A stretch of DNA of 20,902 nt, taken from a virus. Made by a program: the position numbers and the translations under genes. The stretch is taken from positions 1 to 20,902 of the IMG/VR virus record IMGVR_UViG_3300011253_000795; one strand, given 5' to 3'. Under the pieces are notes generated by a model. The model saw only the letters and a program-made list of their open reading frames with translations, was not told the DNA's origin and did no database searches. Shown here one piece after another: positions 5,257 to 20,842 of the stretch. The first letter of the stretch is position 1, and every line of letters starts with the position of its first letter.

Positions 5257-7215
5257 TTATGACACCGCCCGTTGCAAAGTTTGACGCATGCCGTTTTGGT
5301 TGTCGGCTTGCTGGGTGAATATGGACTGAAGCACTGAACGGTTTTCAATCAACCCACGTGCCGCGTCTTTGCTGTCCCATGCATACACGTTGACGTTGAC
5401 TTGTTGACCCTGGCCCGGTTGGCTGCCGGTGAACGTCACTGGAATGCTTCTGTTGTCGGGCAACGGCACAAAGGCTTCATTGCGGTTGCCTTCACCAAAC
5501 ACCGCAAGTTGTGGTGATTTAGCAATGCCACCGCGTGCGTAATTCTGAACCGGCAATGCGTTGTCTGTATTAACCCCAGGCAGCACGCCACCATCAGCCA
5601 AAGCAAACAACGCTTGCGTGATCTTCAGTGCTGCCATCTTTGCAATCAATTGCGCGATCAATGCCAGTGTGCTGCGTGCGAAATCTTTCCAAGCTTCTTT
5701 GGCACTCTTTGTTCCGTCAATGATTCCAGCAAGACCGTTGGCAAATCCGTCAAACACGCCTTTGACTGTCACTGCTAAACCTTTGCCAAGTTCACGGTCA
5801 AACTCTTCAGCTTGTGATTGCAACCCGCCAATGCCTTCTTCCCAACCGGCATCAACTTTCTTCCAATCAATGAACGGGTCATTCTCGTCAGCAGACTGGT
5901 CAAGTTGCATCTGATGCAACTCAGCCAAGAACTTGTCAACCGCATCACTTGCCTCAAAGAAGAATCCATCACCAAAACTTTTGCCAATGTCTTTACCTGC
6001 TTCTCTGATCGGTCCTGTTTCACTAGAAAGTGATTCAGTCAATGCAGCAAACTCTCTGCCAAACTGTTCTTTGCCGCGCCGCAAGTATCCAGACAAAGAC
6101 TCAACTTGCGGGATGCCGTTTTTGATTTCTTCAGCAACTGCTGCTTGGGCCTGAACAACATTGACATGTGCTTTGGCCAACTCAGCTTGCAATGTGGTCA
6201 ACAATGCAGGCATGCGCTGGCCAAATGTTTCAACATTGACCAGTGCGGTGCGTTCAGCAGCCAACGCTTTTTGCAAGTTTTCACTTGCTCCCGATGATCT
6301 AGATAGATCGGTGCCGGGTATCTTTTCAACCAATTCAATGATTTCAATGATCGCGTCGATCATCCAGCCTAACGACTTGACGAACATATCTCTGATCGTT
6401 ATCGACAAATCAACAATCACGCCTTTGTTTTCATTGAATAGCTTTGCGATGCTTTCCAACGTTGTAGTCAACGCTGGGCCAAACGTCACAAGCAGTTCAC
6501 GCCCTACGTTTTGAATTGCTGTTTCCAGTTTCAAAAAACCGTCAATGATGTCTGCTGATGCCTGCACCTGCTGTGTTGTGACTTCTGCACCTGCTTTCTT
6601 GGCATCGCGCAAGCGGTCTTGAAACATCTTGCCGCCACCATCAATCAAGTTGATGACGTTTCGCCATTGCTCAGGAAACAGCGTTGCCAGCAATTGCGTT
6701 TCGCGTGTTGAATCTTCAATCTTGCCAAACCCTTCAGCCATCTGCGCAAGCATGGTTGCTGGTGACATCTTGCGAAGTTCCGACATCGAGAACCCCAGTT
6801 CTCGGAATGCGTTTGCTTGTTCTTTCGCGCCACCCAACGCGCCTTTCTGTGATGACAGAAGGGAAGACAAAACACTTTTGAAACTGTCTGCATTGCCGCC
6901 AGCAGATTCAAACGCATATGACAGCAGGCTAATTTGTTCAACAGTGTCACCAGTTGCATTGGCAAGCTTGCCAATCTGGTCTGTTGTGTTGGCTAGTGAT
7001 TTGAGTACTTGAACTGACTTCAGCGCGAGAAACGCCCCTGTCAGAAACTTAACAGCATCAGCAACAGCCCTGAATGATTTGGCGTTCTTCTTGTTGCCCT
7101 TCTCAATGGTCTTGCCAGTCTTCTCAACTGCTTTGCGAATGTCAGTCAACTGCGTGCTAACTTCATCAATTAGCAATGCACGAATGTTCAGAGTACGTTT
7201 CTCGTTCTTCGCCAT
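5257..7215 (-). CDS. Tail tape measure protein (lambda gpH-like)
   Basis: A 652-residue tape measure protein that sets tail length and is ejected with the DNA. The N-terminus is helical and charged (LIDEVSTQLTDIRKAVEKTGK), followed by a hydrophobic stretch near residues 57-72. Around residues 490-560 is the typical lambda-type C-terminal region, with IDGTKSAKEAWKDFARSTLALIAQLI followed by GGVLPG, ARGGI and GEGNRNEAFVPLP. If the usual relation of about 0.15 nm per residue holds and the protein is not heavily trimmed, the tail would be close to 100 nm. It follows the G/T chaperone pair with a TAATG overlap, as in most long-tailed phages, where these chaperones coat the tape measure before the tube polymerises. 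Confidence 0.9.
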   Translation of the reverse strand: MAKNEKRTLNIRALLIDEVSTQLTDIRKAVEKTGKTIEKGNKKNAKSFRAVADAVKFLTGAFLALKSVQVLKSLANTTDQIGKLANATGDTVEQISLLSYAFESAGGNADSFKSVLSSLLSSQKGALGGAKEQANAFRELGFSMSELRKMSPATMLAQMAEGFGKIEDSTRETQLLATLFPEQWRNVINLIDGGGKMFQDRLRDAKKAGAEVTTQQVQASADIIDGFLKLETAIQNVGRELLVTFGPALTTTLESIAKLFNENKGVIVDLSITIRDMFVKSLGWMIDAIIEIIELVEKIPGTDLSRSSGASENLQKALAAERTALVNVETFGQRMPALLTTLQAELAKAHVNVVQAQAAVAEEIKNGIPQVESLSGYLRRGKEQFGREFAALTESLSSETGPIREAGKDIGKSFGDGFFFEASDAVDKFLAELHQMQLDQSADENDPFIDWKKVDAGWEEGIGGLQSQAEEFDRELGKGLAVTVKGVFDGFANGLAGIIDGTKSAKEAWKDFARSTLALIAQLIAKMAALKITQALFALADGGVLPGVNTDNALPVQNYARGGIAKSPQLAVFGEGNRNEAFVPLPDNRSIPVTFTGSQPGQGQQVNVNVYAWDSKDAARGLIENRSVLQSIFTQQADNQNGMRQTLQRAVS

Positions 7216-7640
7216 TATCGTGCCTTACCTTTGGTGTGCGCTTTCTTGGTCGCCTGTTCTTGTATTGAATTGCGCATCTTGGCCACTTCACTGGCAACCA
7301 ACGGGTACGCCTGCACGAACAAGCTTGCTTGATCTTGCCACCCACCAGGGTCAGGCAAGATGCCTTGTTCAACCATCACCACCGCACCAACCAATTCAAG
7401 GTGCTTGCTTGTTGCCATCTTGTTGGGGCAACGATGAACACCAACGCGCCCTTCACCGTGGCAATGGTCACACTTGTCAACCATGCCGTTGCACCATGGG
7501 CACGGGTTCAACCAGAACAACGGTTCAACCGTTGGCTGATCACAACCCCACTGATGACGCAGATCAGCACTTGTCACGCACTGTCTGCAATCTTGTTCAA
7601 GGCCGCTGCCGCTGCTTTGAAAGGCAACAGCAACAGCCAC
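7215..7640 (-). CDS. Tail assembly chaperone T-like region, cysteine-rich, probably made as a G-T frameshift fusion
   Basis: This 141-residue reading frame occupies the place of lambda T, between G and the tape measure. It contains a dense set of cysteines: CRQC (18/21), C33, CPWCNG (47/50), CDHCHGEG (57/60) and C71, where two CxxCxG motifs resemble the zinc centre of DnaJ. The lambda T domain is not known for such a metal site. The C-terminal half is mainly helical and basic. A GTG at 7640 could start it, but the same frame stays open back through a slippery heptamer at the end of the G gene, so the main product is probably a 258-residue fusion. It would link the tape measure to tube subunits during assembly. 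Its stop overlaps the tape measure ATG (TAATG). Confidence 0.72.
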   Translation of the reverse strand: MAVAVAFQSSGSGLEQDCRQCVTSADLRHQWGCDQPTVEPLFWLNPCPWCNGMVDKCDHCHGEGRVGVHRCPNKMATSKHLELVGAVVMVEQGILPDPGGWQDQASLFVQAYPLVASEVAKMRNSIQEQATKKAHTKGKAR

Positions 7641-7642
7641 TA

Positions 7643-7990
7643 TCAGTTTCCCACTTCTTCATTCATCAGGTTGTTGGCCTTCAAAATGGCTGTGCTTAGA
7701 TCACCCAGCAATGAAAACGGCAACGATTCAAAGCAGTCAAGGGTCAGAGCGTCTGTCACGCTGACGCCTTCAATGACTGCCGTTTTGGTCGCGCAATCTA
7801 AAACACTGCCGTCAGCATTTGTGATGCCTGACCAACCAGCAAGGCCAGCACGCAACATCAATTCAATCCGGTGACTGTCAGACAAGTCAGCCAAACGAAG
7901 CATTGTGCGATGTGGCAGCATGCGAAGTTGAAACGTCGCACCGTCTTGTTGGTGGTCAACAATGTCAGTAAGTGAGCGAGCAATAACCAT
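7643..7990 (-). CDS. Tail assembly chaperone, lambda gpG-like
   Basis: A 115-residue protein directly after the tail tube gene and before the T frame and the tape measure, the position of lambda G. It has the compact helical make-up of tail chaperones, with a conserved-looking early segment FQLRMLPHRTMLRLADLSDSH and a late SLLGDLSTAILKANNLMNEE. These proteins bind the tape measure in excess and are not found in the mature virion. The reading frame ends in TGA immediately after a slippery heptamer, so a fraction of ribosomes should continue into the T frame. I see no strong Shine-Dalgarno sequence before the ATG at 7990. Confidence 0.78.
   Translation of the reverse strand: MVIARSLTDIVDHQQDGATFQLRMLPHRTMLRLADLSDSHRIELMLRAGLAGWSGITNADGSVLDCATKTAVIEGVSVTDALTLDCFESLPFSLLGDLSTAILKANNLMNEEVGN
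7646..7652 (-). promoter_or_regulatory. Programmed -1 ribosomal frameshift site, slippery heptamer GGGAAAC
   Basis: On the minus strand the last sense codons of the G-like gene read GTG GGA AAC, followed at once by TGA. This puts the heptamer G GGA AAC in the correct phase for simultaneous slippage. After a -1 shift the ribosome reads CTG ATA GTG GCT and continues through the whole T frame. Lambda uses G GGA AAG at the same place in its G gene to make gpG-T at a few percent. The phase, position beside the stop and open downstream frame all agree. Predicted fusion: 115 residues of G, then Leu-Ile, then 141 residues of T. Confidence 0.82.
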
Positions 7991-7995
7991 TTGAA

Positions 7996-9423
7996 CTAGA
8001 GTTGTGAGAAGAAGATTTCATCGTCGCCAGATTCAGCGATGCGACGTGGACGCAAAGTCAGATCCATTGTGGAAACCCCATCACTGTCACCAATTGAAAC
8101 TTCAGTGACTTGGCAATTGGGCATGACCATGCTGACAATGTTACCAGCAGTCGTGCCCAACACAAAGCCAACACGCACTGCTGTGCCAGCATCACGCAAC
8201 CCTTCCCAATCAACAGTGCTCAGTGTGTTGTCTACTGTGACCGTCAACGACGAATCACGGTCAGTCACGTTTGCGCCTGTGCTGCCACCTGCGCTGTTGG
8301 CATCAAGGTTTGGTGACACGGTGCCACCATTGTCAAAGTTGATTGATTTGGTTTGGAGCGTTCGCAGATCGGCCCCAGATCCATACGCGCAAATTGCACC
8401 CAACAAACGCGGTGCACGGGTTGTGCCCAGATTGCTGGTGACTAGCGGCGAAGCGTTTACGTCTGTGCCAACGTCCCCTTGGTAATTCCAAGTGAATGAC
8501 ATAGGTTGTCCGACTTCACCTGCCACGCTAAACGTTGCGCGTGCGCCATTCAGAATGCGGTTGCGCCCATCAAGGTTGTGTTGGAATGCAAGTGAAGGCG
8601 TGCGCGTCATTACTGGCACAACGTCCAATGTTCCGTTGGTAGTCGCACCAGTCTTGATCACGTCACCGCTAGCAACTGAACCCCACAGCAACACAATGTC
8701 AGCAGTGGTTGTTGTGGCTGAAATGATTTGTGCGCTTCCAATCAATACGCTTGAACGCTCAATGCGAACAACGTTGCCTGCAACGGGGTTGTTCGTCCAG
8801 TTTCCTGAATCGCTGATCTGTATCAGTTTGTCACTGGTTGGAACGTATGCGTGATGATTGCTTGTCACGCTCACGTCAGCAGTGCTGATCGTCGCACCGC
8901 TACTGCCGCCAGTTGTGGCCACATCTGTTTCAATGGTGCCAGCAATTTCAACCGCAATCATGTAGTCATCAGTGAGTGACGCAGTTGTTTTGGGAACGTT
9001 GCCACTTGTGAAGCAACCAACAACAACAGCAACATCAGCACCAGCACTTTGCGTGATCTGTTCGCCTAGTTGAAACAATCCACTTGCCGCGCCATCACTT
9101 GAGAAGTCAATTTTAAGCAATCGCAACGTTGTGCCGTCTTGCTTGTACCCGCAAGACTCAAGCAACTGCCCCCAATCAGGCACAGTCGCAGGCGTGCCGC
9201 TTCCCCTGAAGTCACTGGTGAACGTCAGTTCACGTTGCTTGCGTCCCACTGGCGTGAAGTCACGTGACAACGTAGCACCAGACGGCACCCTGTCCAATTG
9301 GTCAACCGTGTCACTGATGCTTGGGTCATAGACTTGGATGGCGTCAGATCCTGCAAAGGTTGCACCACCGCCTTCAGTGGTCTCTTTCTTGACTAGTATT
9401 TGCTGCTTTCGTGTAATCGGCAT
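7996..9423 (-). CDS. Major tail tube protein (lambda gpV-like position) with large internal insertion
   Basis: A 475-residue protein in the lambda V position. Its N-terminus (MPITRKQQILVKKE, then DRVPSGATLSRDFTPVGRKQ and LLESCGY) and the segment at about 276-316 (PSLAFQHNLDGRNRILNGAR, FTWNYQGDV) look like the halves of a siphovirus tube subunit. Between them, about residues 105-268 form a Gly, Ser, Thr and Val-rich insertion that I infer to be an extra beta domain on the tube surface. Lambda gpV has 246 residues including its C-terminal Ig-like domain, so this protein is nearly twice as long. It is followed by the G/T chaperones and tape measure, which supports the tube assignment. Only a weak purine-rich stretch precedes the ATG. 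Confidence 0.75.
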   Translation of the reverse strand: MPITRKQQILVKKETTEGGGATFAGSDAIQVYDPSISDTVDQLDRVPSGATLSRDFTPVGRKQRELTFTSDFRGSGTPATVPDWGQLLESCGYKQDGTTLRLLKIDFSSDGAASGLFQLGEQITQSAGADVAVVVGCFTSGNVPKTTASLTDDYMIAVEIAGTIETDVATTGGSSGATISTADVSVTSNHHAYVPTSDKLIQISDSGNWTNNPVAGNVVRIERSSVLIGSAQIISATTTTADIVLLWGSVASGDVIKTGATTNGTLDVVPVMTRTPSLAFQHNLDGRNRILNGARATFSVAGEVGQPMSFTWNYQGDVGTDVNASPLVTSNLGTTRAPRLLGAICAYGSGADLRTLQTKSINFDNGGTVSPNLDANSAGGSTGANVTDRDSSLTVTVDNTLSTVDWEGLRDAGTAVRVGFVLGTTAGNIVSMVMPNCQVTEVSIGDSDGVSTMDLTLRPRRIAESGDDEIFFSQL

Positions 9424-9432
9424 GTTTCTTTT

Positions 9433-9786
9433 CTACGGTATGAATGCCAGCACGGGTTCAACATCTGCAACCACAGTGGCTGTTGTTGCTGATGTCCAAT
9501 TGACTGTTGGTGCTGACAACCAACGCCATGTGCTTTCAATTGATGAACCGGGGCCAATCCATTTGAATACCCCGGCAGCGTGTGCTTGATAGTGCTGCCA
9601 GATCACTTCAACATGTTCTGCTGTGCGATCAGTCCAACTGACGCTATACGTGAAAGGCTGCACCACACTGTCTGTTCTGTTCAGATACAGCATGCCACCT
9701 TGTGACGGGGCAGACAGATTCCGGTTGTGGTCAGTGCTGACTTGATACGCCGCAACCCTTGGCAGCATGTCGCCTGTTATGGTCAT
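9433..9786 (-). CDS. Small tail protein of unknown role between terminator and tube genes
   Basis: I do not recognise this 117-residue protein. It is aromatic and beta-rich, with the segments PFTYSVSWTDRTAEHVEVIWQ, GVFKWIGPGSSIESTW and RWLSAPTVNW, and no membrane segment or catalytic motif. The ATG overlaps the stop of the terminator-like gene (ATGA) and the gene ends nine bases before the tube start, so it belongs to the tail operon. Lambda has no gene here between U and V. The pattern of a strand, a Trp-rich loop and a helix with VEVIWQHY faintly recalls small distal-tail or gpM-like domains, but not enough to assign it. A minor tail or neck role is the simplest inference. Confidence 0.6.
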   Translation of the reverse strand: MTITGDMLPRVAAYQVSTDHNRNLSAPSQGGMLYLNRTDSVVQPFTYSVSWTDRTAEHVEVIWQHYQAHAAGVFKWIGPGSSIESTWRWLSAPTVNWTSATTATVVADVEPVLAFIP

Positions 9787-11233: not shown

Positions 11234-11442
11234 TTGCGTGACCCCCGCTTGCCGCGCTTAGTGGTCCCACTGCTGGCAACCTCCACCTTTGCCGCAGTCA
11301 CTGGCGCGGTAATTTCGTCAGGCATTTGGGGGCCAAGAACACAGCGCATGCGTTGCAAAGCCTGCACCAGATCAATCGCACTCACTTCAAGATCCATGAC
11401 CCCAAGTCTGTTGCCTGATTTGTCGTTGATCTGGTATCGCAT
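11230..11442 (-). CDS. Small protein of unknown function in the lambda FI position
   Basis: A 70-residue protein starting MRYQINDKSGNRLGVMDLEV, with a helix (AIDLVQALQRM) and a basic C-terminal tail (TTKRGKRGSRK). I do not recognise a family. I chose the ATG at 11442 because it forms TAATG with the stop of the preceding decoration gene, the same junction style as its neighbours. An earlier ATG at 11466 would add eight residues and overlap the preceding gene by 25 bases. By position it corresponds to lambda FI, which helps the terminase dock on the prohead, but FI proteins are longer and no similarity is visible. Confidence 0.6.
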   Translation of the reverse strand: MRYQINDKSGNRLGVMDLEVSAIDLVQALQRMRCVLGPQMPDEITAPVTAAKVEVASSGTTKRGKRGSRK

Positions 11443-11939
11443 TAGACAATCAACAAGCTTGACCATGCGGCGTTGAACTCAACAAGCACTCTGCCAGTGT
11501 TGGCACCGCCTGTCACTGCTGCGTCAGCGTCAGCAACTTTGCCAATCTTGACTGCGTTGCCTGCTGAACTGGTTGTGAATGTGTTGCCATCTGTTGCATA
11601 AACAACCAAACCCAAATCGTCAAACGTCCATGCTGCACCATTATCAACATCAAGCCAAACGCTGCCATTCACATGCAGATCAGTTTGGCATGATCTAGCC
11701 GCGCCGCCATGCGGCACGGTGTTCAATCGGTTGTCAACTGACTCAGCCGCAAAGCCAACAAAGTCTGCTGCCGCTTGTGAAGCACAGTTGACGATTCCAC
11801 CAGTATGCGGCGAATCACCAACTGGGCCAGCCATCATGGCTTGACCAACAAACACGCGCACGTTTGCGCCCACGTCCAAACGTCCTTTCTTCACGATGCC
11901 GCGAAAGTCACGCGGCGTGTTCATTGTCAAGTCTGCCAT
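11442..11939 (-). CDS. Putative capsid decoration protein, second copy
   Basis: A 165-residue protein clearly related to the gene before it (11942-12391). Shared segments include MA(D/N)LT at the start, FVGFAAE, the motif N-x-(V/I)PHGGA-x-R, a VWL strand and VYATDGN-x-F, ending in a V(L/V)V-F strand. It is slightly longer, with extra residues near 37-46 and at the C-terminus (NAAWSSLLIV). A pair of small beta-rich proteins just after the major capsid gene most likely decorates the capsid, analogous in role to lambda gpD though not visibly homologous. The gene starts two bases after its paralogue's stop and has only a weak GGA upstream. Confidence 0.65.
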   Translation of the reverse strand: MADLTMNTPRDFRGIVKKGRLDVGANVRVFVGQAMMAGPVGDSPHTGGIVNCASQAAADFVGFAAESVDNRLNTVPHGGAARSCQTDLHVNGSVWLDVDNGAAWTFDDLGLVVYATDGNTFTTSSAGNAVKIGKVADADAAVTGGANTGRVLVEFNAAWSSLLIV

Positions 11940-11941
11940 GA

Positions 11942-12391
11942 TTATCCGAACTTAACTAAGATAGAAGCATCAGCCGCGCCGCTGAAATCGGCATTGTCCA
12001 AGTTGGCAATCGTGCCAACAATAGGACGCGTGCCAGCGTCAACAATGTCAAAGACATTGCCGTCAGTCGCATAGACTGTCTTGCCTTGGTCAGTTGCTGC
12101 CCAGTTGCCGCCACTTGCCTTGCCGACAGTTAGCCACACATAGCCAGAAATCATCACGTCAGCCTTTGCTGCACGGTTTGCGCCGCCATGCGGAATTGAG
12201 TTTGTCAGGTTGTTGACATACTCAGCGACAAAGCCAACAAACTCTTCATCAGCAACACATGCTTTGATGCCGTTGGTTGACTGTGACACTGCTTGGCCCG
12301 TGAAGGCTTCAATGTTGCCATGCACTTCATAGCGTGCTTTGGTAATTGGCCCGAGAAACTCGCGCCCCAGATTGCTTGTCAAATTAGCCAT
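11942..12391 (-). CDS. Putative capsid decoration protein, first copy
   Basis: A 149-residue beta-rich protein immediately after the major capsid gene. The core has EEFVGFVAEYVNN, NSIPHGGANR, SGYVWLTV and KTVYATDGNVFD, all echoed in the following paralogue. It has no signal peptide or catalytic motif. Position after the capsid gene, small size and duplication suggest a cement or decoration protein bound to the outer capsid; I infer this, since no named family was recognised. The gene has the clearest Shine-Dalgarno sequence in the window (AGGAG, eight bases before ATG), consistent with a product needed in hundreds of copies. Confidence 0.67.
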   Translation of the reverse strand: MANLTSNLGREFLGPITKARYEVHGNIEAFTGQAVSQSTNGIKACVADEEFVGFVAEYVNNLTNSIPHGGANRAAKADVMISGYVWLTVGKASGGNWAATDQGKTVYATDGNVFDIVDAGTRPIVGTIANLDNADFSGAADASILVKFG

Positions 12392-12399
12392 CAGTTATG

Positions 12400-12404
12400 C
12401 TCCT
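12400..12404 (-). promoter_or_regulatory. Strong Shine-Dalgarno AGGAG overlapping the capsid stop codon
   Basis: On the minus strand the end of the capsid gene reads AGC TAG GAG, so AGGAG uses the last two bases of the TAG stop. It lies eight bases before the ATG at 12391. Most other starts in the window rely on weak purine stretches and overlapping stop/start codons, so this site marks the decoration gene as independently and strongly initiated. Confidence 0.7.
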
Positions 12405-13332
12405 AGCTGAAGGTGGTAAGGGTTGCGAGTTCAAAGCGACCAAGTGCCGCCTGACAAATACGCTTTGCGCCAAATGCGACTTCTTCACGCCAGAAGGCGT
12501 TGTCACTGTCAATGCCAAGCGTCTTGAACGCTTCGCCACCCGGCAACATTTCTTCTTGCCAGATGCCTGCCTTGACCGGCGCATCAGTGCGGAACATATA
12601 CATTTTTGTGTCTGCCGTCAGTCGTGGATTGACAACCGGCGTGATTGTCAAACCCATGCCTGCCGCTGACTGCAACGTGTTGCTAACACCAGCAGACGTG
12701 AAGACGTCCTTCAGTGCTGCAATCAATGGTTGCCACATGTTCACTGGAACCATCACCATGAATTGCTGTGCGAACTCATTGCATGGGTCACCCGAATCAT
12801 CCTTGAAGCCATACATGGCTTGCACAGCTTCAAGAATTGCCGCGCTCATTTCAGCACTTGTTGGCGCATTGGCAACGGTGCTGTTGTATGCCAAGTTGTT
12901 GTCAACACTGCCAGCGTTGTGCGCATTAGCAAAGAACGCTGCGCCATCATAGCCAGTGCCGTTTGCTTCAAGCAACGTGGTGAACAATCGCTGTGGCAAC
13001 GTTGCTGCCTTCTGGCCCATTTCAGCAACACGGCGCACAATCTGCCCCGTCTTGTCACGCCTGATGTCATCAACATCAAAAGCCAACGTGCTGTCAAACT
13101 TGTCACTGATCACGTTCAGTTCATAATCACCAAGACCACTGCGCACGCGCTCGCCGCGCCATGCTGACATGGAAGGCGCACTGCCTAGCCATTTGTAGAT
13201 TTCATATGGTTGATCACTGTCAAACATGTTTGAAATCATTGGCACCCATGATGCTTGTTGGGTTTCTTCCAACGACCAAAAGTAGCTGCCTTCAATGTTG
13301 CGCAGGCTAAACGACGAAAACTGACCACTCAT
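12403..13332 (-). CDS. Major capsid protein, Mu gpT-type
   Basis: A 309-residue capsid subunit whose features match the Mu-like gpT group: YKWLGSAPSMSAWRGER at about 46-62, then YELNVISDKFDSTLAFDVDDIRRD, RRVAEMGQKAATLPQRLF and GYDGAAFFANAH. Mu gpT has YGWLGKFPTLKEW, a KTFEGTVGISRDDFEDD-like stretch, EMGRSAA and CYDGQNFFDKEH at equivalent places. The second half contains a probable P-loop/E-loop region with MVMVPVNMWQPLIAAL and ends REEVAFGAKRICQAALGRFE. No long N-terminal delta domain is visible; the scaffold is supplied by the upstream protease-scaffold gene. The ATG overlaps that gene's stop (ATGA). Coat family is well supported. Confidence 0.88.
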   Translation of the reverse strand: MSGQFSSFSLRNIEGSYFWSLEETQQASWVPMISNMFDSDQPYEIYKWLGSAPSMSAWRGERVRSGLGDYELNVISDKFDSTLAFDVDDIRRDKTGQIVRRVAEMGQKAATLPQRLFTTLLEANGTGYDGAAFFANAHNAGSVDNNLAYNSTVANAPTSAEMSAAILEAVQAMYGFKDDSGDPCNEFAQQFMVMVPVNMWQPLIAALKDVFTSAGVSNTLQSAAGMGLTITPVVNPRLTADTKMYMFRTDAPVKAGIWQEEMLPGGEAFKTLGIDSDNAFWREEVAFGAKRICQAALGRFELATLTTFS

Positions 13333-14372
13333 TGGGAAACCCCGTTGTTAGTTGTGTTGCCATACTTGCGGCAACGGTGCTTGTTGTTGTTCCAAGAAAG
13401 CCAAACAGATTCAATGCCGCCAAACTCTGCACGCAGTTCTGCGCTTTTCTTCCAATCTGAACGCCACTTGTCTTCACCTTCTGGCAACTCTGGTTGCGCT
13501 TCAATCGCAGGTGCAGACAGCGCGGCAGTGTTAGCAGTTTGAACAGTGCTTGGCGACGTGCTTTGCTCACGCGTGCGAGCATCGGCAGCAAGTTGCAAAG
13601 ACGCTTGACGTTCGTCAACACCGTCTTTGATCAGCGTCCGTGCCAAATCAATTTGGCAGTTGGCAGCAAGTTCAAGAATATACGCAACCCGTTCTGATTC
13701 GGCTTGCTGCGCTTGCAAGCGCACTGCCTCGGTATCAACCATAGGAGCAACGGGTTTTGGCTCACTGGTTGTCGTGTCGTTGTCGGTCATGGTTTCACCG
13801 GGTACTGACAAAGATGCATGGACCACTTGCGCTACATCGCTCAAGCTTGCGTCCGATGCGGTATTAGGATCTGCGCCAAGGGCTGTGAAAGTCACTTCAC
13901 GCAGTTTGGATTTTGAAAAGATGGTGGCTGGCCCTTCAACATTGTGGCCATTGACTTGGGCAGTTTCGCCGCTTTCTAGTGGGCGCACTTCGCTGGCAAC
14001 CAAGTAGCACGACGCCTGCCATGGGAAACCTTCTTGGCTATCTGCCCTGACTTGCTTGGCGTCGTTGTTGCTCAACATGATGCCTTCAGCCATCAAGCCT
14101 TCTGATTCATCAACATACAACTTGGTTGTGTAGCCAACGCGCCTTGTTGCATCGTGATCAAGCAATGCCGCAACGTGCTTGCCTTCCCATTCAATGCCAC
14201 TCAGATCAACAGCCAATGTGCCAAAGTGCCAATGGTCCATTGGAATGCCGCTGTTGACTTGCATTTTGAATCTTGGCTTGCGCCCTTCTTCAACAGGATC
14301 TTGCAAGCGCACTTCATCTTCAGGAATCTGCAAGCGGCATGCCTGCAACGGTATTGCAACTGTGTTGGTCAT
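13329..14372 (-). CDS. Prohead protease fused to scaffold domain
   Basis: A 347-residue protein in two parts. Residues 1-185 look like a prohead serine protease of the HK97/U35-like kind: AALLDHD with His73, FPWQASCYL with Ser121 and the strand LREVTFTALGADPNT at 157-171. Residues from about 195 to the end are charged, alanine and glutamine-rich and probably coiled (RLQAQQAESERVAYILELAA), ending in a region with WRSDWKKSAELRAEFGG. This is the layout of protease-scaffold genes such as lambda C/Nu3 and Mu I/Z. The product should template prohead assembly and then digest the scaffold. An in-frame ATG at residue 195 could start a scaffold-only product. The start overlaps the portal stop (ATGA). 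Confidence 0.8.
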   Translation of the reverse strand: MTNTVAIPLQACRLQIPEDEVRLQDPVEEGRKPRFKMQVNSGIPMDHWHFGTLAVDLSGIEWEGKHVAALLDHDATRRVGYTTKLYVDESEGLMAEGIMLSNNDAKQVRADSQEGFPWQASCYLVASEVRPLESGETAQVNGHNVEGPATIFSKSKLREVTFTALGADPNTASDASLSDVAQVVHASLSVPGETMTDNDTTTSEPKPVAPMVDTEAVRLQAQQAESERVAYILELAANCQIDLARTLIKDGVDERQASLQLAADARTREQSTSPSTVQTANTAALSAPAIEAQPELPEGEDKWRSDWKKSAELRAEFGGIESVWLSWNNNKHRCRKYGNTTNNGVSQ

Positions 14373-16279
14373 TCTTGTTCGTCTTCTGATTCTGATTGCG
14401 TGGCGGTTTCGTCAATGTCTGCACCGTCTTCTTCATTGATTTCTTGTGCGTTAACTGATGACAACGTGACTGGTCTGCGCACTGGTTCGTTGCCCCAGTT
14501 GTCAGCAACGTCTGTGCTGAAATCTGGCAAGTTGAGTTCTTCACGCAATGCTTGTTCAACTTCTGCACTAGGACTGATCAAGCCAGAGCGAACGGCAATG
14601 CCTAGCGCATCAATGCGTTCACGCACTGTCATGCCTGAATCAAGAGGGGTTGCGTCATTGTTTTGACTGCTGTTGCCTTCTTCTTCATTGGATGAAGAAC
14701 GATCATTCACCATTGATGACGCAACCCCAGTAAGCGAACCAGGAACCAAGTTGTACTCTTCTTCAATGCGTGCTGCTTGGCTAGCAAACTGCGCTTTGCG
14801 TTCTAGTATTTCAATCGGGTCCAAGCCTGCACGCCCTGCTTCATGCCAGGGTGTGCTTAGATTTGCGTCGATGGCTTCCTTGGCTGCTGCAATTTCTTTC
14901 ATCGGATCAACCCAACCGTATGCCGGTGGGATCCAATCAGCAGCCAACCATGGTTCAGGGTTGTCAAGGTATTCAGAAGGCGGAACAAGTGCACCCGTTT
15001 GAACACCGTGACGAATCACATTGCGCCACCATGGACGGCAGAACAAACGCACAAGCAATGCGCGGTCACGATCAAAGCCGCGTTGCTCTTCTTTCAGTTG
15101 GCCGCGCATTGAACTGTAATTCATGCCGCCAAAATCACGCGCCATGCGTTCATATGACATGCCGTTGCTCGCAGCAATCGCACGCAACATGCGCACAACG
15201 AATGTGTCACTGATGCCGGGGCGATTGGGGTTGAACGGCACTGGCTCTTCACCTTCGTTCAGGTAAGCAATAGTGCCTGCTTCAAGCTTTTCATGGTACG
15301 CCAAATCACCGCCAGCTTCTTCACCCTGCACAGGGATAATGTCACTGTCACTTGCGTTCACCGATTTCTTGATGAACATGGCATAGTTGGCAGCAGCACG
15401 CGCACCGATGATTTCACTTTGCAAATAGTGGTGAAGGTGTTCGACATAGCTTGCAGAACTGGCACTGTCTGGCACGCCACGTGATTGCCCTGGCCTGCTT
15501 CGCCTGTAAACGTGTTGCATCACTGACAGTTCACTGTCACCAGCAACAATCAGCGTGGTTTCAGAGTTGCGCCAGAACTCCACATCATCAGGGTGCGACG
15601 TGGCAACGTAGTACCCCTGTGGACGCATCATCCTGTCAAGCAATACGCCGCTGCGCAGGTTTTGCGCGTCACGGTCATTGTTTGGGTTGATGATCCGGTC
15701 AGCGTCTATTGTTTCAATGGCTAGTGTGTTGTCACCACCAACGACAGCATGCGTGAAGCATTCGCCATCAATCTTGCGTGTGCGTGCAACCAGTGCTTGC
15801 AAGTCATAGAACGTGCCATGGCCACTGGCGTCAGCTTCTTCATTTGCCCAGCGTTCAAAGTAAGCTTCACACGACTTGCGCCACTGTGTCACCACTTCTT
15901 CTGTAGATTTGGTTTTTTCAACAGACGTTGCGCATTGCGGTTTCACGCCTTGGCCAACAACCGCGTCAACGTAGACATCAACGACGCTTGCCGCGTGGCT
16001 ATCGTCTTGCGCTTGACGCCGCGAACGCGCACGCATCGTTGAAAGTCCTGGCAGCGTTTCAGCGTCTGCGCTTTGTGCGCGTTCCCTGGGCATCACGCGG
16101 TCAACTGTTGCCGCTTCATATGCCAACAATGCCTGCGACTTCATGCGCCGCGTTTGCATCTTGTGTGCCAACCCAGGCGCGATCAGACCAACTGTTGTGT
16201 CAATCGCCTGCGCAATGCGACCCTGAACGCCCTGATATATGGGTTGCCGACTGCTGCCACCGCGCATTTTGACGCCCAC
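14369..16279 (-). CDS. Portal protein, lambda gpB family
   Basis: A 636-residue portal subunit that forms the dodecameric DNA channel. Recognisable lambda-family segments are LSTMRARSRRQAQDDSHAAS near residues 79-98, VVGQGVKPQ, FYDLQALVARTRKIDGECF, the IETIDADRI strand and MSYERMARDFGGMNYSSMR, followed by RDRALLVRLFCRPWW. The C-terminus is acidic. I list the GTG at 16279, which forms TAGTG with the gpW-like stop and has AAGGTG eight bases upstream; an ATG four codons later is a fair alternative. It is flanked by gpW-like and protease-scaffold genes exactly as B is in lambda. Confidence 0.92.
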   Translation of the reverse strand: MGVKMRGGSSRQPIYQGVQGRIAQAIDTTVGLIAPGLAHKMQTRRMKSQALLAYEAATVDRVMPRERAQSADAETLPGLSTMRARSRRQAQDDSHAASVVDVYVDAVVGQGVKPQCATSVEKTKSTEEVVTQWRKSCEAYFERWANEEADASGHGTFYDLQALVARTRKIDGECFTHAVVGGDNTLAIETIDADRIINPNNDRDAQNLRSGVLLDRMMRPQGYYVATSHPDDVEFWRNSETTLIVAGDSELSVMQHVYRRSRPGQSRGVPDSASSASYVEHLHHYLQSEIIGARAAANYAMFIKKSVNASDSDIIPVQGEEAGGDLAYHEKLEAGTIAYLNEGEEPVPFNPNRPGISDTFVVRMLRAIAASNGMSYERMARDFGGMNYSSMRGQLKEEQRGFDRDRALLVRLFCRPWWRNVIRHGVQTGALVPPSEYLDNPEPWLAADWIPPAYGWVDPMKEIAAAKEAIDANLSTPWHEAGRAGLDPIEILERKAQFASQAARIEEEYNLVPGSLTGVASSMVNDRSSSNEEEGNSSQNNDATPLDSGMTVRERIDALGIAVRSGLISPSAEVEQALREELNLPDFSTDVADNWGNEPVRRPVTLSSVNAQEINEEDGADIDETATQSESEDEQE

Positions 16280-16500
16280 TAGAAACGCACCTTGGTATAC
16301 CTGACGCCATTGGCACGCGCTTTCTGTGCTTCATAGTATTTCCGCGCTTCAATGATTTCATTCAGACTGCGCATGTTGACGGTTCTGCCGTTGACTGTGT
16401 AGCTGCCAACGTCGCCACCTTTCAAGATTGCATCATCTAACGCGTCAAGAATCGCCTGCGCATCTAGCGCGGTGATGCTTGGTTGTTCATCGCCTGACAT
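16279..16500 (-). CDS. Head-tail joining protein, lambda gpW-like
   Basis: A 73-residue protein with the gpW pattern: an N-terminal helix (ITALDAQAILDALDDAI), the strand-turn SYTVNGRTVNMRSL, a second helix EIIEARKYYEAQKARA and the ending GVRYTKVRF. gpW (68 residues in lambda) fills the bottom of the portal after packaging and provides the platform for FII. Its place immediately before the portal gene agrees. The codon before the ATG is an in-frame TGA, which fixes the start region. The 78-base gap upstream separates it from the inserted glycosidase-like gene. Confidence 0.85.
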   Translation of the reverse strand: MSGDEQPSITALDAQAILDALDDAILKGGDVGSYTVNGRTVNMRSLNEIIEARKYYEAQKARANGVRYTKVRF

Positions 16501-16544
16501 TCACGCGATGATGACCAAACACGTTTCACAATCAACCCTGCAAT

Positions 16545-16557
16545 CTCGCAGTGCGAG
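16545..16557. repeat. Short perfect inverted repeat in the only sizeable intergenic gap
   Basis: CTCGCA and TGCGAG flank a single central base. As RNA this could form a five-pair stem with a three-base loop. It lies in the 78-base gap (16501-16578) between the glycosidase-like gene and the gpW-like gene. No T-run follows it on the minus strand, so it is not a standard terminator; a run of six T lies 13 bases after it on the plus strand. I see no convincing promoter or other element in the rest of the gap. Confidence 0.4.
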
Positions 16558-16578
16558 CAACGCCGCAATGTTTTTTGC

Positions 16579-18147
16579 TTACCACCAACGCTTGTTCTTT
16601 GCGTTGAAGTCATGCAACGCACGCGCCTTTGGTGCAGTCATTAGTGGTTGGCCTTGCCACTCTTTTGAACCCCAGCAACCCCACTGGCTGAACTTTGACA
16701 CGTGGTTGTAGTGCACAAACAAGTTGCCGCCTGACAACATCCATGAATCTAAGTACTTCAAATACATGCCATGCATGCGCTGATTGCGGTTGGCTTGCAT
16801 CATCAGATCAACCATTGGCTGACGGTATGTTGATGGCACAGTCACGGTCACGTGTTGCCCACCTTCATACGCAATCATGGGCAGACCGTATGAACCAGAC
16901 ACGTTGGCATTCTGGTGCATGCGTGACACTGCAATTGGCATGCTGACTTGTTCGATGTAGTCCAACAGATCATTGTCAGACATAGCGATGAACTGCATGA
17001 CGTTGTTGGCATTGATTGACAAGTTGAAGTATGGCGCAACAGCCAAAGCGTCACATGACTTGTACGCTTGCTGATGGCTCAACACTTGGTCTGCCGTCCA
17101 TGAATTGCCAGCCTGTGACGCCATGACTCTAACGATGCGATCAGTTCCACCAAATGAAGCCGTGAACAAATTGAAGACATCGACTGCACGCCGTGAGTAG
17201 TAAAACAAACGCGCCTGAAACGCGCTGGTACCAAGACCAGAATTGATGCCAAGCGTTTCACAATATGCAGCCTGTTCAAACTGGTTGTTCCAAACTTCGT
17301 TGGAATACTCAATGTATACAGTCAGCGGACCGTTCAAATTGTCGCGCACCATATCTGCAAGACTGGTCACCATTGCATCAGTTGCTTGATGTGGCACACA
17401 CAACCACGCGTCTTTCATCAACGTGTTGCACATATCAACTGCAAGTTCATACGGCATGCCCTTTGTTGTTGTGTATCGCGCATCACTGATCTTTGGGCGG
17501 TCTGACCAATCTTGAATGCTGCTGTGGTTGGTGCGCGTCAAATCCATCCAGCGCAAACACGCAACATCAGTCAGACCGTTCACAAACGCAGGGTGCCAAG
17601 TTGCCGTTGATGTTTCATGCGCTTCTTCTGTGATGCGAATGTTTCGCATGTAGTCATTCACATCTGTTGATGTGAAATACAACAACACCTTGCCAGTGAC
17701 AATCAGCACAGCACGTTGCGCCGTTGTTTCACCTGCCGACAAAGTGCAGCCACCGCTGACAGTGAAAGCACCATTTCCTTGCCATGTCATGACATACCGC
17801 CCGGTGGGTGGCATTGGTAATTCTGCAAGCAATACCGTTCGCACAATTTGCCCTGGTGCAATAGATGTCACCCAGCCTGATGCATCAGTGGCAATTGGTT
17901 GGCCATTGTCCCACGTACTTGAATCACCAGAAACCCACGGTGCGCTGTACTTGAACAAGTCGATCAGCGGCAATTGTGATGACCAGTATGACGGTTCAAG
18001 AATGTTGGTGCCTAATGCAGAACGGCCACTGTCATCACCAACACTTGAATGAACCAGTGGTGCGGCAGTTGTTGGCGAACTATCAACACCAACATCACCA
18101 GTGCAACTGGCCAACAACAAAACAGACCACATCAAAATCTTGGTCAT
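16579..18147 (-). CDS. Predicted lipoprotein with glycoside-hydrolase-like (clan GH-A type) barrel; cargo gene
   Basis: With the ATG at 18147 the product has 522 residues. It begins MTKILMWSVLLLASCTGD: a short basic start, a hydrophobic core and the lipobox LAS-Cys15, so it should be exported and lipidated. Residue +2 is Thr, which favours the outer membrane in a Gram-negative cell. After a beta-rich segment (to about 175), the C-terminal part has WSDRPKISDARYTT, VYIEYSNEVWN with Asn283-Glu284, and LPMIAYEGG with Glu428. NE and a later strand-end Glu are the acid/base and nucleophile pattern of clan GH-A glycosidases. Substrate unknown. The ATG follows the previous stop by one base (TGATATG). 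A start at 18237 would overlap the zinc-finger gene by 89 bases and bury the signal peptide, so I rejected it. Lambda has nothing here between A and W. Confidence 0.72.
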   Translation of the reverse strand: MTKILMWSVLLLASCTGDVGVDSSPTTAAPLVHSSVGDDSGRSALGTNILEPSYWSSQLPLIDLFKYSAPWVSGDSSTWDNGQPIATDASGWVTSIAPGQIVRTVLLAELPMPPTGRYVMTWQGNGAFTVSGGCTLSAGETTAQRAVLIVTGKVLLYFTSTDVNDYMRNIRITEEAHETSTATWHPAFVNGLTDVACLRWMDLTRTNHSSIQDWSDRPKISDARYTTTKGMPYELAVDMCNTLMKDAWLCVPHQATDAMVTSLADMVRDNLNGPLTVYIEYSNEVWNNQFEQAAYCETLGINSGLGTSAFQARLFYYSRRAVDVFNLFTASFGGTDRIVRVMASQAGNSWTADQVLSHQQAYKSCDALAVAPYFNLSINANNVMQFIAMSDNDLLDYIEQVSMPIAVSRMHQNANVSGSYGLPMIAYEGGQHVTVTVPSTYRQPMVDLMMQANRNQRMHGMYLKYLDSWMLSGGNLFVHYNHVSKFSQWGCWGSKEWQGQPLMTAPKARALHDFNAKNKRWW

Positions 18148-18148
18148 A

Positions 18149-18382
18149 TCAATCACGCTTCTTGTGCCTTTGTTCATCGGGTAGCCATTTGTGCAAGTCA
18201 CTTCGTTCAACCTGAACACTGCGATACCTTTGCCCACAGTTCTGGCATGTATGGTATCGCATAGTTGCGCAGCGTGGTGAACGGTTCACACTGTATGTGC
18301 GTGGCTTGAAAGACCCGCACTTGGGGCAACGGAATGGCAGGAACGGCACAGTTGGCAACCACCGTTCGTCATGATCTACCAT
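18149..18382 (-). CDS. Small zinc-finger protein, resembling Ogr/Delta-type fingers
   Basis: A 77-residue basic protein with CPKC at 19-22 and CQNC at 46-49, spaced to bind one zinc ion. The stretch from FRCPKCG through RYHTCQNCGQRYRSVQ resembles Ogr/Delta late-gene activators of P2-like phages, which have CPLC, then RYHQCQN and a second Cys pair. Such proteins bind DNA or RNA polymerase. The C-terminus is charged (DEQRHKKRD). The ATG overlaps the TerL stop (ATGGTAG) and its own stop is one base before the next gene's start, so it is translated with the terminase genes. A packaging-related role, for example an HNH-like accessory, is not supported because no nuclease motif is visible. Function is inferred only from the finger. 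Confidence 0.65.
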   Translation of the reverse strand: MVDHDERWLPTVPFLPFRCPKCGSFKPRTYSVNRSPRCATMRYHTCQNCGQRYRSVQVERSDLHKWLPDEQRHKKRD

Positions 18383-20286
18383 TGTTGTCTTGGCATGTTC
18401 ACGCCAGAACTACTGCGCCCCATAATGCGGCGTTGATGTTTTGGGCGTTGCCGGTTCTGCTGCTGTGCTTCAGCGTTGCTGCTTCTAAGCGTATCAACGC
18501 GCACCATGCGTGCAGCGGCAATGTTGTACACGAACACGTCCCAAGCTTCATTGCGCTTGCGCCCTGGCTTCAACACCCAACGGCGCACAACACGATTGCC
18601 GCTGCGTCTTGCTGTCTTGTGTTCTGCTGACAACTGCTGAACAAAGTGTTGCGGCATGTCACTTGGCAGATGGGTCAAGCCAATGGGGTTTTCTTGCGGT
18701 CGTAACTTCAACCGCAACCTGTGGCTTGCAAGGTCTTTGAACATGCCAACGTTGACAGTCCAAACGGTCAGACTGTTGGGCAGCACTTGCCCCGTCTTGG
18801 GGTGCTTGTCAATTCGCGTTGTTGAGAATGGCACAGGTGAATTGCGTTCAACGCCAGCAATCATGCGCGTGCCTGTGTTGCGTCGTGCAAACTCCATGAC
18901 TTCATCACGCCTATACCGCGAGTCAATCGCCACGCATCTTGGCCAAATCTCTTTTGCGCCCCATGGTTTGTAGACTTCTGCGCGTAGCTGTTCCCAAGTT
19001 TCAACGCGTGCAGTTGCAATGACCCAGCATTGTTCATCCATGCCCCACGCACAAACCATGTAGACCATGTAGTCAAGTTGCACGTCAACCGCTGCTGTGA
19101 TGACTAGTGCTGCATCCGGCACCGTGTGTTCTTCATATTCACTGATGCACGCGGCAACAGCATCATCACTGGTTGCTTCAACACGTTCTTCAAAGACTTC
19201 AGCCAACCAACTGTTGGTGAAGTTCTGCAACCGCGCCGGGTCATCTTTGCTTTCAAGAAACGCCACAGCCAGTTTCCAGAAAGTCAGCCAAGGTGAATAG
19301 GCTGCCCAAATGTGATAGCTACGGTGCTCATGACGGTCAGCGTCAGCACCACCGCTTTGCCACTCTTCAACCGTCTTGCCGTCTGGCACCCACACACCAC
19401 GGCGCAGCATGTCGCGTTTGTCGATGTCATTGATTCGTGCTTTGCAGTGCTTGCACTCGTACCAGGCTTCACGCTGTTCACGCATGTCTGATGCTGTGCG
19501 CACTTTGTCGCTGTGCCATTTGACTTGCGACCATTCCAACACTTGCATTGCTTCGCAGTGTGGGCAGGGCAAATGATATTTGCGCATGTCGCCTTGCTCA
19601 TACTCACGCCACACAGTGCCGTCACGCGTGGTTGGTGTGCTGCTGATGACAATGCAGTGATCATGGAATGTGCGCGTACGTTCTGCGACCAGTGCCAACG
19701 GGTCTGCTTCACGCCCTGACCACCTGGGCCATTTGTCCACTTCATCACAGAGCACCAGTCTGACTGGCACGCTAGCCAGATCAGTTGGTGACTGTGCACT
19801 GCGCATGTATAGCACGCTGCGCTTGAACACAATTTCACGGTGCTTCACATCGTGTGCGCGTTCAGTCAATTCATCCAACAGCGTTTCACATGATTGAACC
19901 ATTGGCAACACTCTGCGTTCTGCCGCCAGTCTTGCCGCGTCCCTGTTGGGCAAAACAAACATGGTTGGTGATGGCTTCTGGTTGACGTAGTATCCAGCCA
20001 CATTGTTCAGTGCTTCGCTTTTGCCAACCTGCGTTGATGCCATCAGCGTCACGCGCCGCACCCATGGCAATGCCGCGCTGTCCATCCATTCACGCGCATA
20101 CGGGCAACGATCAGTGCGCCATGGTCCCGGCTCAGATGCAAACAGCGGTTCAAGTATCCGGTTGTCATCTGCCCATTGGCTGACTGACATACGCTTGGGT
20201 TGACGCCAGTTGCGCACCACGTCCACATCATCACACCACAGTTCCAGCGGTGCCGTGTTCATTGGTGCCATTGATCGTTCAGTCAT
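18376..20286 (-). CDS. terL: Terminase large subunit, lambda gpA family
   Basis: A 636-residue packaging motor and nuclease, near lambda gpA's 641. The ATPase has Walker A ASTQVGKS at 83-90, Walker B VRLVLCDEVD at 175-184 and the coupling motif ISSTP at 214-218. A zinc-binding module follows, with Cys241/Cys244 (CPHC) and Cys278/Cys281 (CKHC). The nuclease half contains acidic strands ITAAVDVQLD and CVAIDSRYRRDEV and a late AWDVFVYNIAAARM segment. gpA-type terminases usually cut at cohesive-end sites, so cos packaging is a reasonable inference. The start overlaps the small terminase stop by eight bases, indicating coupled translation. Confidence 0.95.
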   Translation of the reverse strand: MTERSMAPMNTAPLELWCDDVDVVRNWRQPKRMSVSQWADDNRILEPLFASEPGPWRTDRCPYAREWMDSAALPWVRRVTLMASTQVGKSEALNNVAGYYVNQKPSPTMFVLPNRDAARLAAERRVLPMVQSCETLLDELTERAHDVKHREIVFKRSVLYMRSAQSPTDLASVPVRLVLCDEVDKWPRWSGREADPLALVAERTRTFHDHCIVISSTPTTRDGTVWREYEQGDMRKYHLPCPHCEAMQVLEWSQVKWHSDKVRTASDMREQREAWYECKHCKARINDIDKRDMLRRGVWVPDGKTVEEWQSGGADADRHEHRSYHIWAAYSPWLTFWKLAVAFLESKDDPARLQNFTNSWLAEVFEERVEATSDDAVAACISEYEEHTVPDAALVITAAVDVQLDYMVYMVCAWGMDEQCWVIATARVETWEQLRAEVYKPWGAKEIWPRCVAIDSRYRRDEVMEFARRNTGTRMIAGVERNSPVPFSTTRIDKHPKTGQVLPNSLTVWTVNVGMFKDLASHRLRLKLRPQENPIGLTHLPSDMPQHFVQQLSAEHKTARRSGNRVVRRWVLKPGRKRNEAWDVFVYNIAAARMVRVDTLRSSNAEAQQQNRQRPKHQRRIMGRSSSGVNMPRQQW

Positions 20287-20842
20287 CTTCCCTCAAATCA
20301 CAGAAGGGGCATGCGGCATCTTCATCAATGCCGCCAAACGTCTTTGACATGCCACCGGCAAAGGCATTGCAGATGGCGTCAACTTCATCTTGCAACTCTT
20401 CAACGACCACGTGACCGGGCACATTCTCAAGACGTGATTGCATCTTCATCACCATCGCATTCAATCTGCTGCGAACGGTCAGCACTGATTTGCTGGCCAA
20501 CTCTATCACGTCACGTCTGCTGACTAGGCTTTTGGTTTTTTCGCCAACGCGCAGTTTGGCTTCAGCGGCACGCCACTGCGCCAACTCGCGGTCATGCTTG
20601 GCTTTCAATGCATCTTTGCCAGATGACGCTGCCGCCTGCTGCTGCTGCTGGAATGTGCCAACGTTGTCTTTGCGCCACTGGTGAAACCGCACTGCCCATG
20701 GTTGCACATCGCGTGCATTCTTTGGGGTGGGCGCACCGTCTGCCAGATTCTTGCGCAAGGTCTCTGAAGACAGACCAACCAACTTGGCCAATTCGCTGAT
20801 TGGCTTGGCGAACTTGGGCTTGGCACCTGTGCGTCCTGGCAT
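20279..20842 (-). CDS. terS: Terminase small subunit, Nu1-like
   Basis: A 187-residue DNA-recognition subunit. Residues 13-60 form a winged helix-turn-helix (PISELAKLVGLSSETLRKNL, then VQPWAVRFHQWRKD) as in lambda Nu1. A glutamine run (65-69) and a helical, charged region (AKHDRELAQWRAAEAKLRVGEK) follow, typical of Nu1-type oligomerisation segments. The C-terminus has an unusual CPFC pair at 178-181. A G-rich stretch (GGGGGTG, 20851-20857) about eight bases upstream can serve as ribosome binding site. It is adjacent to and overlaps TerL, as expected. The packaging site (cos) would normally lie just upstream, which is outside the window. Confidence 0.85.
   Translation of the reverse strand: MPGRTGAKPKFAKPISELAKLVGLSSETLRKNLADGAPTPKNARDVQPWAVRFHQWRKDNVGTFQQQQQAAASSGKDALKAKHDRELAQWRAAEAKLRVGEKTKSLVSRRDVIELASKSVLTVRSRLNAMVMKMQSRLENVPGHVVVEELQDEVDAICNAFAGGMSKTFGGIDEDAACPFCDLREDD

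Follow-up and report, generated by a model that had tools for sequence, protein, structure and literature searches.

A predicted lipid-anchored glycosidase encoded by a single-gene insertion in the packaging operon of a tailed phage

The window, i.e. the whole stretch of DNA analysed here, spans an entire IMG/VR virus record of 20,902 bp, and all its recognised genes lie on the minus strand (Table 1). Among the packaging and head genes is an intact open reading frame for a glycosidase-like protein; the position and length that a first-pass annotation made from the DNA alone had given for this frame were exact. The same annotation had placed the gene between those for the terminase and gpW. The downstream half of this placement holds in that gpW adjoins the gene; upstream, however, the adjoining frame is that of the zinc-ribbon protein and not terL, and a single base separates its stop codon from the ATG of the glycosidase gene. 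Viral hallmark genes flank the cellular-type glycoside hydrolase (GH) gene on both sides, i.e. terL upstream as well as gpW and portal downstream. The zinc-ribbon protein has weak likeness to Lar-type and zinc-ribbon families and is kept in both sister phages described below. Past the capsid gene, the adjoining genes at 11442-11939 and 11942-12391 each match the other's counterparts in these sister phages, a cross-matching that suggests tandem duplication of a decoration or cement protein.

Table 1. Features of the window in the order of transcription, with positions counted from its first nucleotide
Feature	Position	Strand	Remarks
terS	20279-20842	-	
terL, terminase large subunit (gpA type)	18376-20286	-	PF05876, PF20454, phrog_15
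77-aa zinc-ribbon protein	18149-18382	-	weak zinc-ribbon matches; left neighbour of the insertion
Glycosidase-like, predicted lipoprotein gene	16579-18147	-	intact ORF, ATG at 18147, stop at 16579, 522 aa
Predicted prolipoprotein signal MTKILMWSVLLLASC, residues 1-15; lipobox L12-A13-S14-C15, Thr at +2	18103-18147	-	agrees with the PS51257 rule
EYSNEVWN, residues 280-287; E284, proposed acid/base, after barrel strand 4 (277-281)	17287-17310	-	DSSP of the model
AYEGG, residues 426-430; E428, proposed nucleophile, after barrel strand 7 (424-426)	16855-16869	-	DSSP of the model
Spacer, 78 bp, glycosidase stop codon to gpW start	16501-16578	-	holds GCTCGCACTGCGAG
gpW-like head-tail adaptor	16279-16500	-	phrog_118, E 8.5e-9; right neighbour of the insertion
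Portal protein, lambda family	14369-16279	-	PF05136, phrog_21
Protease	13329-14372	-	
Major capsid protein (MCP)	12403-13332	-	
Tail genes after MCP, down to J-like tail fibre	left end of window	-	

Sister phages were searched for with the terminase, which returned one contig (IMGVR_UViG_3300044512_002740; L188/L229), and with the capsid protein, which returned a closer one (IMGVR_UViG_3300031627_000054; L228). L228 is 79% identical to the window in terL, 74% in the zinc-ribbon protein, 87% in gpW, 80% in the portal protein, 73% in the protease and 88% in MCP, and the corresponding values for L229 are 66, 64, 75, 63, 62 and 70%. In both, the gene order is terS-terL-zinc ribbon-gpW-portal-protease-MCP with no glycosidase gene, and the zinc-ribbon gene is directly followed by gpW after about 70-80 bp of spacer. 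Moreover, GCTCGCACTGCGAG downstream of the glycosidase gene corresponds to GCTCGCCCTGCGAG directly after the zinc-ribbon stop codon in L228, and this correspondence marks the right edge of the insertion. The comparison of gene orders indicates that one gene of about 1.6 kb is added precisely between the zinc-ribbon and gpW genes. Because the nearer as well as the farther sister lacks the gene, a gain in the lineage of the window is the simplest reading. The two empty sites thus support the suggestion of the first-pass annotation that the gene is an insertion in a head operon, and they rule out that the glycosidase is a fixed part of the packaging operon of this phage type. Absence from the same site in close relatives, as seen in L228 and L188/L229, is also expected of a moron, i.e. 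a cargo gene of tailed phages.

A scan for promoters and terminators at the glycosidase gene gave no sites above the shuffled expectation, although the promoters of the host may be of another type; similarly, RNA folding of the 78-bp spacer gave no structure above shuffles. As no promoter or terminator stands out, the gene is presumably read with the operon, and gene order suggests late co-expression with it. The GC content of the gene is 0.492 compared to 0.513 for the window, and its codon-usage correlation is within the range of the other genes.

The N terminus of the protein, MTKILMWSVLLLAS followed by C15, fits the PROSITE prolipoprotein rule (PS51257), i.e. a positively charged N terminus, a hydrophobic core and a lipobox Cys within residues 15-35. 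No other gene in the window fits this rule; when the first 40 residues were shuffled 20,000 times, 109 of the shuffled sequences (0.5%) did so. The rule is also obeyed by the relatives L039, L049 and L038. When L039 and L049 were aligned with the glycosidase, M1, L5 and L12-A-S-C15 were invariant and a Lys or Arg was present near the start, while the hydrophobic core had diverged. Thus, the lipoprotein signal (LAS-Cys15) noted in the first-pass annotation is corroborated, including by its retention in the gene's own phage clade at 58-60% identity, and the protein is probably exported and lipidated through Cys15. By the Lol rule of enteric bacteria, Thr after the Cys would direct the protein preferentially to the outer membrane. 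In the structure model described below, residues ~16-40 lack order and plausibly form a tether for an anchored domain.

Single-sequence structure prediction gave a pLDDT of 30 only. By contrast, the AlphaFold model built on an alignment of 102 phage and bacterial relatives had a pLDDT of 92.1 and a pTM of 0.89 and is a TIM barrel, (beta/alpha)8. In this model, the signal and lipobox (residues 1-15) and the linker (~16-40) are followed by one folded unit, in which an inserted beta-sandwich (~residues 93-174) lies between strands 1 and 2 of the barrel. In a Foldseek search against the PDB, nearly all of the 50 matches listed were clan GH-A enzymes, comprising GH51 arabinofuranosidases, GH53 galactanase, GH79 heparanases and glucuronidases, GH5/GH10 endo-enzymes, GH42 and GH164. 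With modest TM-scores to solved enzymes (0.3-0.4, relative to the query), these matches establish the class of the barrel but do not reveal a substrate. The best match, A0A6N1NJT8, and a phage 'GH5' in BFVD superposed poorly (rmsd about 19) and were set aside.

The first-pass annotation had read EYSNEVWN and AYEGG as marks of clan GH-A. The model bears this out in that a barrel was obtained in which Asn283-Glu284 and Glu428 lie at the ends of strands 4 and 7, where the clan has its acid/base and nucleophile, respectively. E428 is present in 101 of the 101 alignment rows covering that position, and R199, W248, N283 and E284 are each present in 102 of 102 rows; for N283 and E284, the count is in part a product of the retrieval of relatives by EYSNEVW patterns, although E284 is also kept in five rows obtained with another pattern (L081, L083, L088, L090 and L093, with L081 and L090 being near copies). 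On the strength of the model, we propose that the glycosidase domain is a retaining clan GH-A enzyme with E284 as acid/base and E428 as nucleophile. The protein had no family match in Pfam or NCBIfam at E<=1 and none in PHROGs at E<=0.1, and neither the protein alone nor the family profile matched PDB sequences. Similarly, there was no Pfam barrel match for 30 aligned phage members and no NCBIfam match for eight phage and bacterial members. Therefore, we consider the protein an enzyme of the clan GH-A type for which these libraries define no family, and which could belong to a recent CAZy family.

Relatives in phages were found at 53 loci in an alignment scan of viral contigs and in 49 contigs in a motif scan; an exact-peptide scan of viral contigs found nothing. 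Neither the glycosidase gene nor a member of the signal-peptide group had a match among 50,697 named phage genomes, which thus yield no isolate or host for the gene. The nearest relatives, L039/L051 and L049/L052, are phage genes 58 and 60% identical to that of the window, and both bear a lipobox. In the tree, the window gene, L039 and L049 form a clade with an SH-aLRT support of 100%. L051 shares no gene with the window apart from the glycosidase, and its head type differs (phrog_2 terminase and phrog_332 connector); its glycosidase gene lies between the connector and the scaffold/capsid genes and, thus, again in the head region. In L049, the gene is beside DNA-metabolism genes. A 58% identical glycosidase, the lack of any other shared gene and the different head type point to spread from phage to phage, and the computed comparisons indicate separate acquisition in unrelated phages. 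The dN/dS ratio was 0.17 for L039 versus L049 (0.038/0.218) and 0.11 for L034 versus L019 (0.043/0.384), arguing that the enzyme is under constraint by purifying selection.

In other phages, the family takes other forms. A group of some 20 contigs encodes a signal-bearing protein with a short hydrophobic start (MLLSLLLALAPQ...), and its gene is located next to that for a small basic protein, opposite thyX and DNA polymerase genes, or near terL/portal. In L064 (7050-7949), the protein preceding the glycosidase in one phage group is small and very basic, and over its first 100 residues it resembles the C termini of several large PHROG families without an assigned function. Also in L064 (9458-12073), and in L061, L066, L068 and others, matches to the phrog_17 DNA polymerase extend over three successive open reading frames of 339, 174 and 344 aa, which cover successive parts of the profile; this arrangement recurs in about 13 contigs. 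More distant family members are found inside large multidomain phage proteins together with a beta-helix (L081), Ig repeats (L083), collagen and a GDSL lipase (L091) or a PhoD phosphodiesterase (L080), suggesting that a virion-borne use of the fold may exist in those phages; nothing indicates such a use for the window protein. The N-terminal, beta-helix-like half of the L081 protein (7086-9665) is homologous (30%, E 1e-25) to a separate L051 protein encoded near the glycosidase gene (5168-6670), and this fusion in one phage of what is separate in another hints that both parts act together. In L051, which is the closest complete relative, the lipoprotein glycosidase gene is preceded at 6677-7997 by small membrane open reading frames and one for a 74-aa lipoprotein, which resemble a lysis cassette by size and topology only and had no match to a lysis family.

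In cells, a genome scan confirmed relatives on at least 590 stretches of bacterial DNA, with a best identity of 39% among the matches listed. These matches come from Planctomycetota, Cyanobacteriota, Armatimonadota, Myxococcota, Pseudomonadota and others, and this cellular family (loci L103-L182) has no Pfam or NCBIfam model among its scanned members. Of the N termini inspected by eye, most resemble Sec, Tat or lipoprotein signals. The gene of Methylophilus (L165) is among genes for Wzx, Wzy, acyltransferases and glycosyltransferases, and in Hyphomicrobium (L118) it is near genes for Wzy_C and glycosyltransferases. With the exopolysaccharide (EPS) proteins of these two loci as probes, EPS-type genes were detected close by in 13 of 85 cellular or plasmid loci, 10 of them with Wzx, a frequency obtained without a matched control set; no EPS genes were near by in the remaining 72. 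Four of the 10 Wzx-bearing loci belong to a cellular clade of nine rows, the neighbour of the phage lipoprotein clade in the tree. Plasmid-borne relatives have varied gene surroundings, often without annotation. As part of an explanation that we regard as the best one and hold, as a whole, with even confidence, the phage gene would have descended from a bacterial family of secreted proteins that is partly tied to EPS clusters.

Altogether, these observations suggest, with about equal chances of being right or wrong, that the gene is phage cargo for an envelope-anchored, retaining hydrolase of EPS or a surface glycan, made late and easing release or preventing re-adsorption. In this mechanism, a single cargo gene inserted in the packaging/head operon of a tailed phage would be expressed along with the late genes, and its product would be exported, lipid-anchored via Cys15 and tethered by a flexible linker of 25 residues. 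The anchored enzyme would then probably hydrolyse the infected host's own EPS or surface glycan, such that progeny could leave the matrix of the cell and would not stick to infected cells or debris. That Gram-negative lipoproteins often face the periplasm and that most of the bacterial loci had no EPS genes close to them count against this explanation, in which the side of the membrane faced by the protein, and its exposure at the surface, are what we infer. In a bolder form, which we put forward only tentatively, a lipid-anchored glycosidase passed between unrelated tailed phages might strip the host of its own EPS so that progeny are released and not recaptured, and would thus be a receptor- or matrix-destroying factor.

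Several other functions would be compatible with parts of these data. The gene could be an auxiliary metabolic gene (AMG) whose product breaks down environmental polysaccharide, providing more sugar for the infected or lysogenic host, a role suggested for glycosidases of soil viruses. GH genes with viral genes on either side have been described, one GH5 enzyme having been shown to be active (PMC6786970), and polymer-degrading bacteria of the Planctomycetota and allied phyla commonly carry the cellular family; however, a late packaging operon leaves little time for a nutritional gain, the window contains no transporter or catabolic partner gene, and the visible partner genes in Proteobacteria are for EPS synthesis and not for uptake systems, making this function unlikely. 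Alternatively, an anchored enzyme could remove a glycan receptor and, in this way, protect the infected cell or lysogen from superinfection. As a rule, proteins that mediate exclusion are produced early or by a prophage, whereas the glycosidase gene is in a late operon with no promoter or terminator beyond chance, and the 20.9-kb record, which is incomplete, contains no integrase or repressor. Thus, although two phage lipoproteins, T5 Llp and TP-J34 Ltp, have a role in exclusion (PMC9586334, PMC3952083) and a single-gene insertion suits moron-like cargo, we regard exclusion as decidedly unlikely; the late position would fit release or an anti-adsorption function after lysis better than classical exclusion.

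The multidomain relatives in L081, L083, L091 and L080, as well as the separate homologue in L051 of the beta-helix part of L081 close to the lipoprotein GH gene, would also agree with a virion-associated depolymerase on the tail or head, for which the N-terminal signal would be irrelevant or cleaved off. But apart from the barrel and the inserted sandwich, the window protein lacks any domain for virion structure or tail binding, and the export signal has been kept over the divergence to 58-60% identity, and we judge this function very unlikely. Finally, a periplasm-facing anchored glycosidase placed like a spanin could weaken the wall or clear periplasmic polymer at lysis, in line with the late operon position and with the L051 gene following small membrane and lipoprotein reading frames that are lysis-cassette-like by size and topology only. 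These L051 frames match no lysis family, the cellular relatives point to EPS, and, to our knowledge, clan GH-A is not a usual clan of murein hydrolases, all of which makes a lysis factor extremely improbable.

An envelope-acting clan GH-A lipoprotein in the packaging operon, as envisaged in the first-pass annotation, is in agreement with the fold, the signal and the insertion; by contrast, its precedent, T5 Llp, does not speak for surface exposure. Llp is expressed early and has been argued to be periplasmic (PMC9586334), and so a lipobox does not imply surface exposure. In the same paper, exclusion is described as avoiding, among others, non-productive adsorption to fragments of lysed cells (PMC9586334), a purpose that suits a late enzyme. 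Like the window protein, T5 Llp and TP-J34 Ltp (PMC9586334, PMC3952083) are phage-encoded envelope lipoproteins; neither has been described as an enzyme and Llp is early, whereas the window protein is enzyme-like and late by position. No phage lipoprotein glycosidase was found in the literature searched, which excluded most subscription papers; phage glycosidases and phage lipoproteins are each already known, and the combination is new within that literature. The empty sites of the sister phages suggest that the gain is recent enough for a clean test with and without the gene. Moreover, the phage copies are compact, selected versions in which to assay a family that occurs on at least 590 stretches of bacterial DNA and has no Pfam model or assigned substrate.

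The phage protein has the same TIM barrel as the clan GH-A hydrolases (GH51, GH53, GH79, GH5, GH10 and GH39-type), with Asn-Glu after strand 4 and Glu after strand 7; it differs from them in having no sequence-level match and a beta-sandwich inserted between strands 1 and 2. As a working analogy, Pseudomonas PslG is a glycosidase of an EPS operon that can cut the cell's own EPS (PMC9075953, PMC7237758), and cellular relatives of the phage enzyme also occur in Wzx/Wzy-type EPS clusters; however, a PDB profile search found no sequence relation to PslG, and the phage gene product would be lipid-anchored and is phage-borne. With virus-encoded glycosidase AMGs such as a soil-virus GH5 endomannanase (PMC6786970) and a chitosanase (PMC9485262), the window gene shares that a cellular-type GH gene is flanked by viral hallmark genes, and it differs in its family without a Pfam model, its lipoprotein signal and its site inside a packaging operon. 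For phage tailspike and fibre depolymerases, the comparison is with other family members, which in phage proteins are joined to regions of beta-helix, Ig or collagen type, whereas the window gene product is free-standing and has an export signal. If the enzyme destroys a matrix, its role would be comparable to that of the receptor-destroying enzymes of animal viruses. The gene joins phage glycosidases, until now described either as metabolic genes or as depolymerases of the tail, with the envelope lipoproteins of phages.
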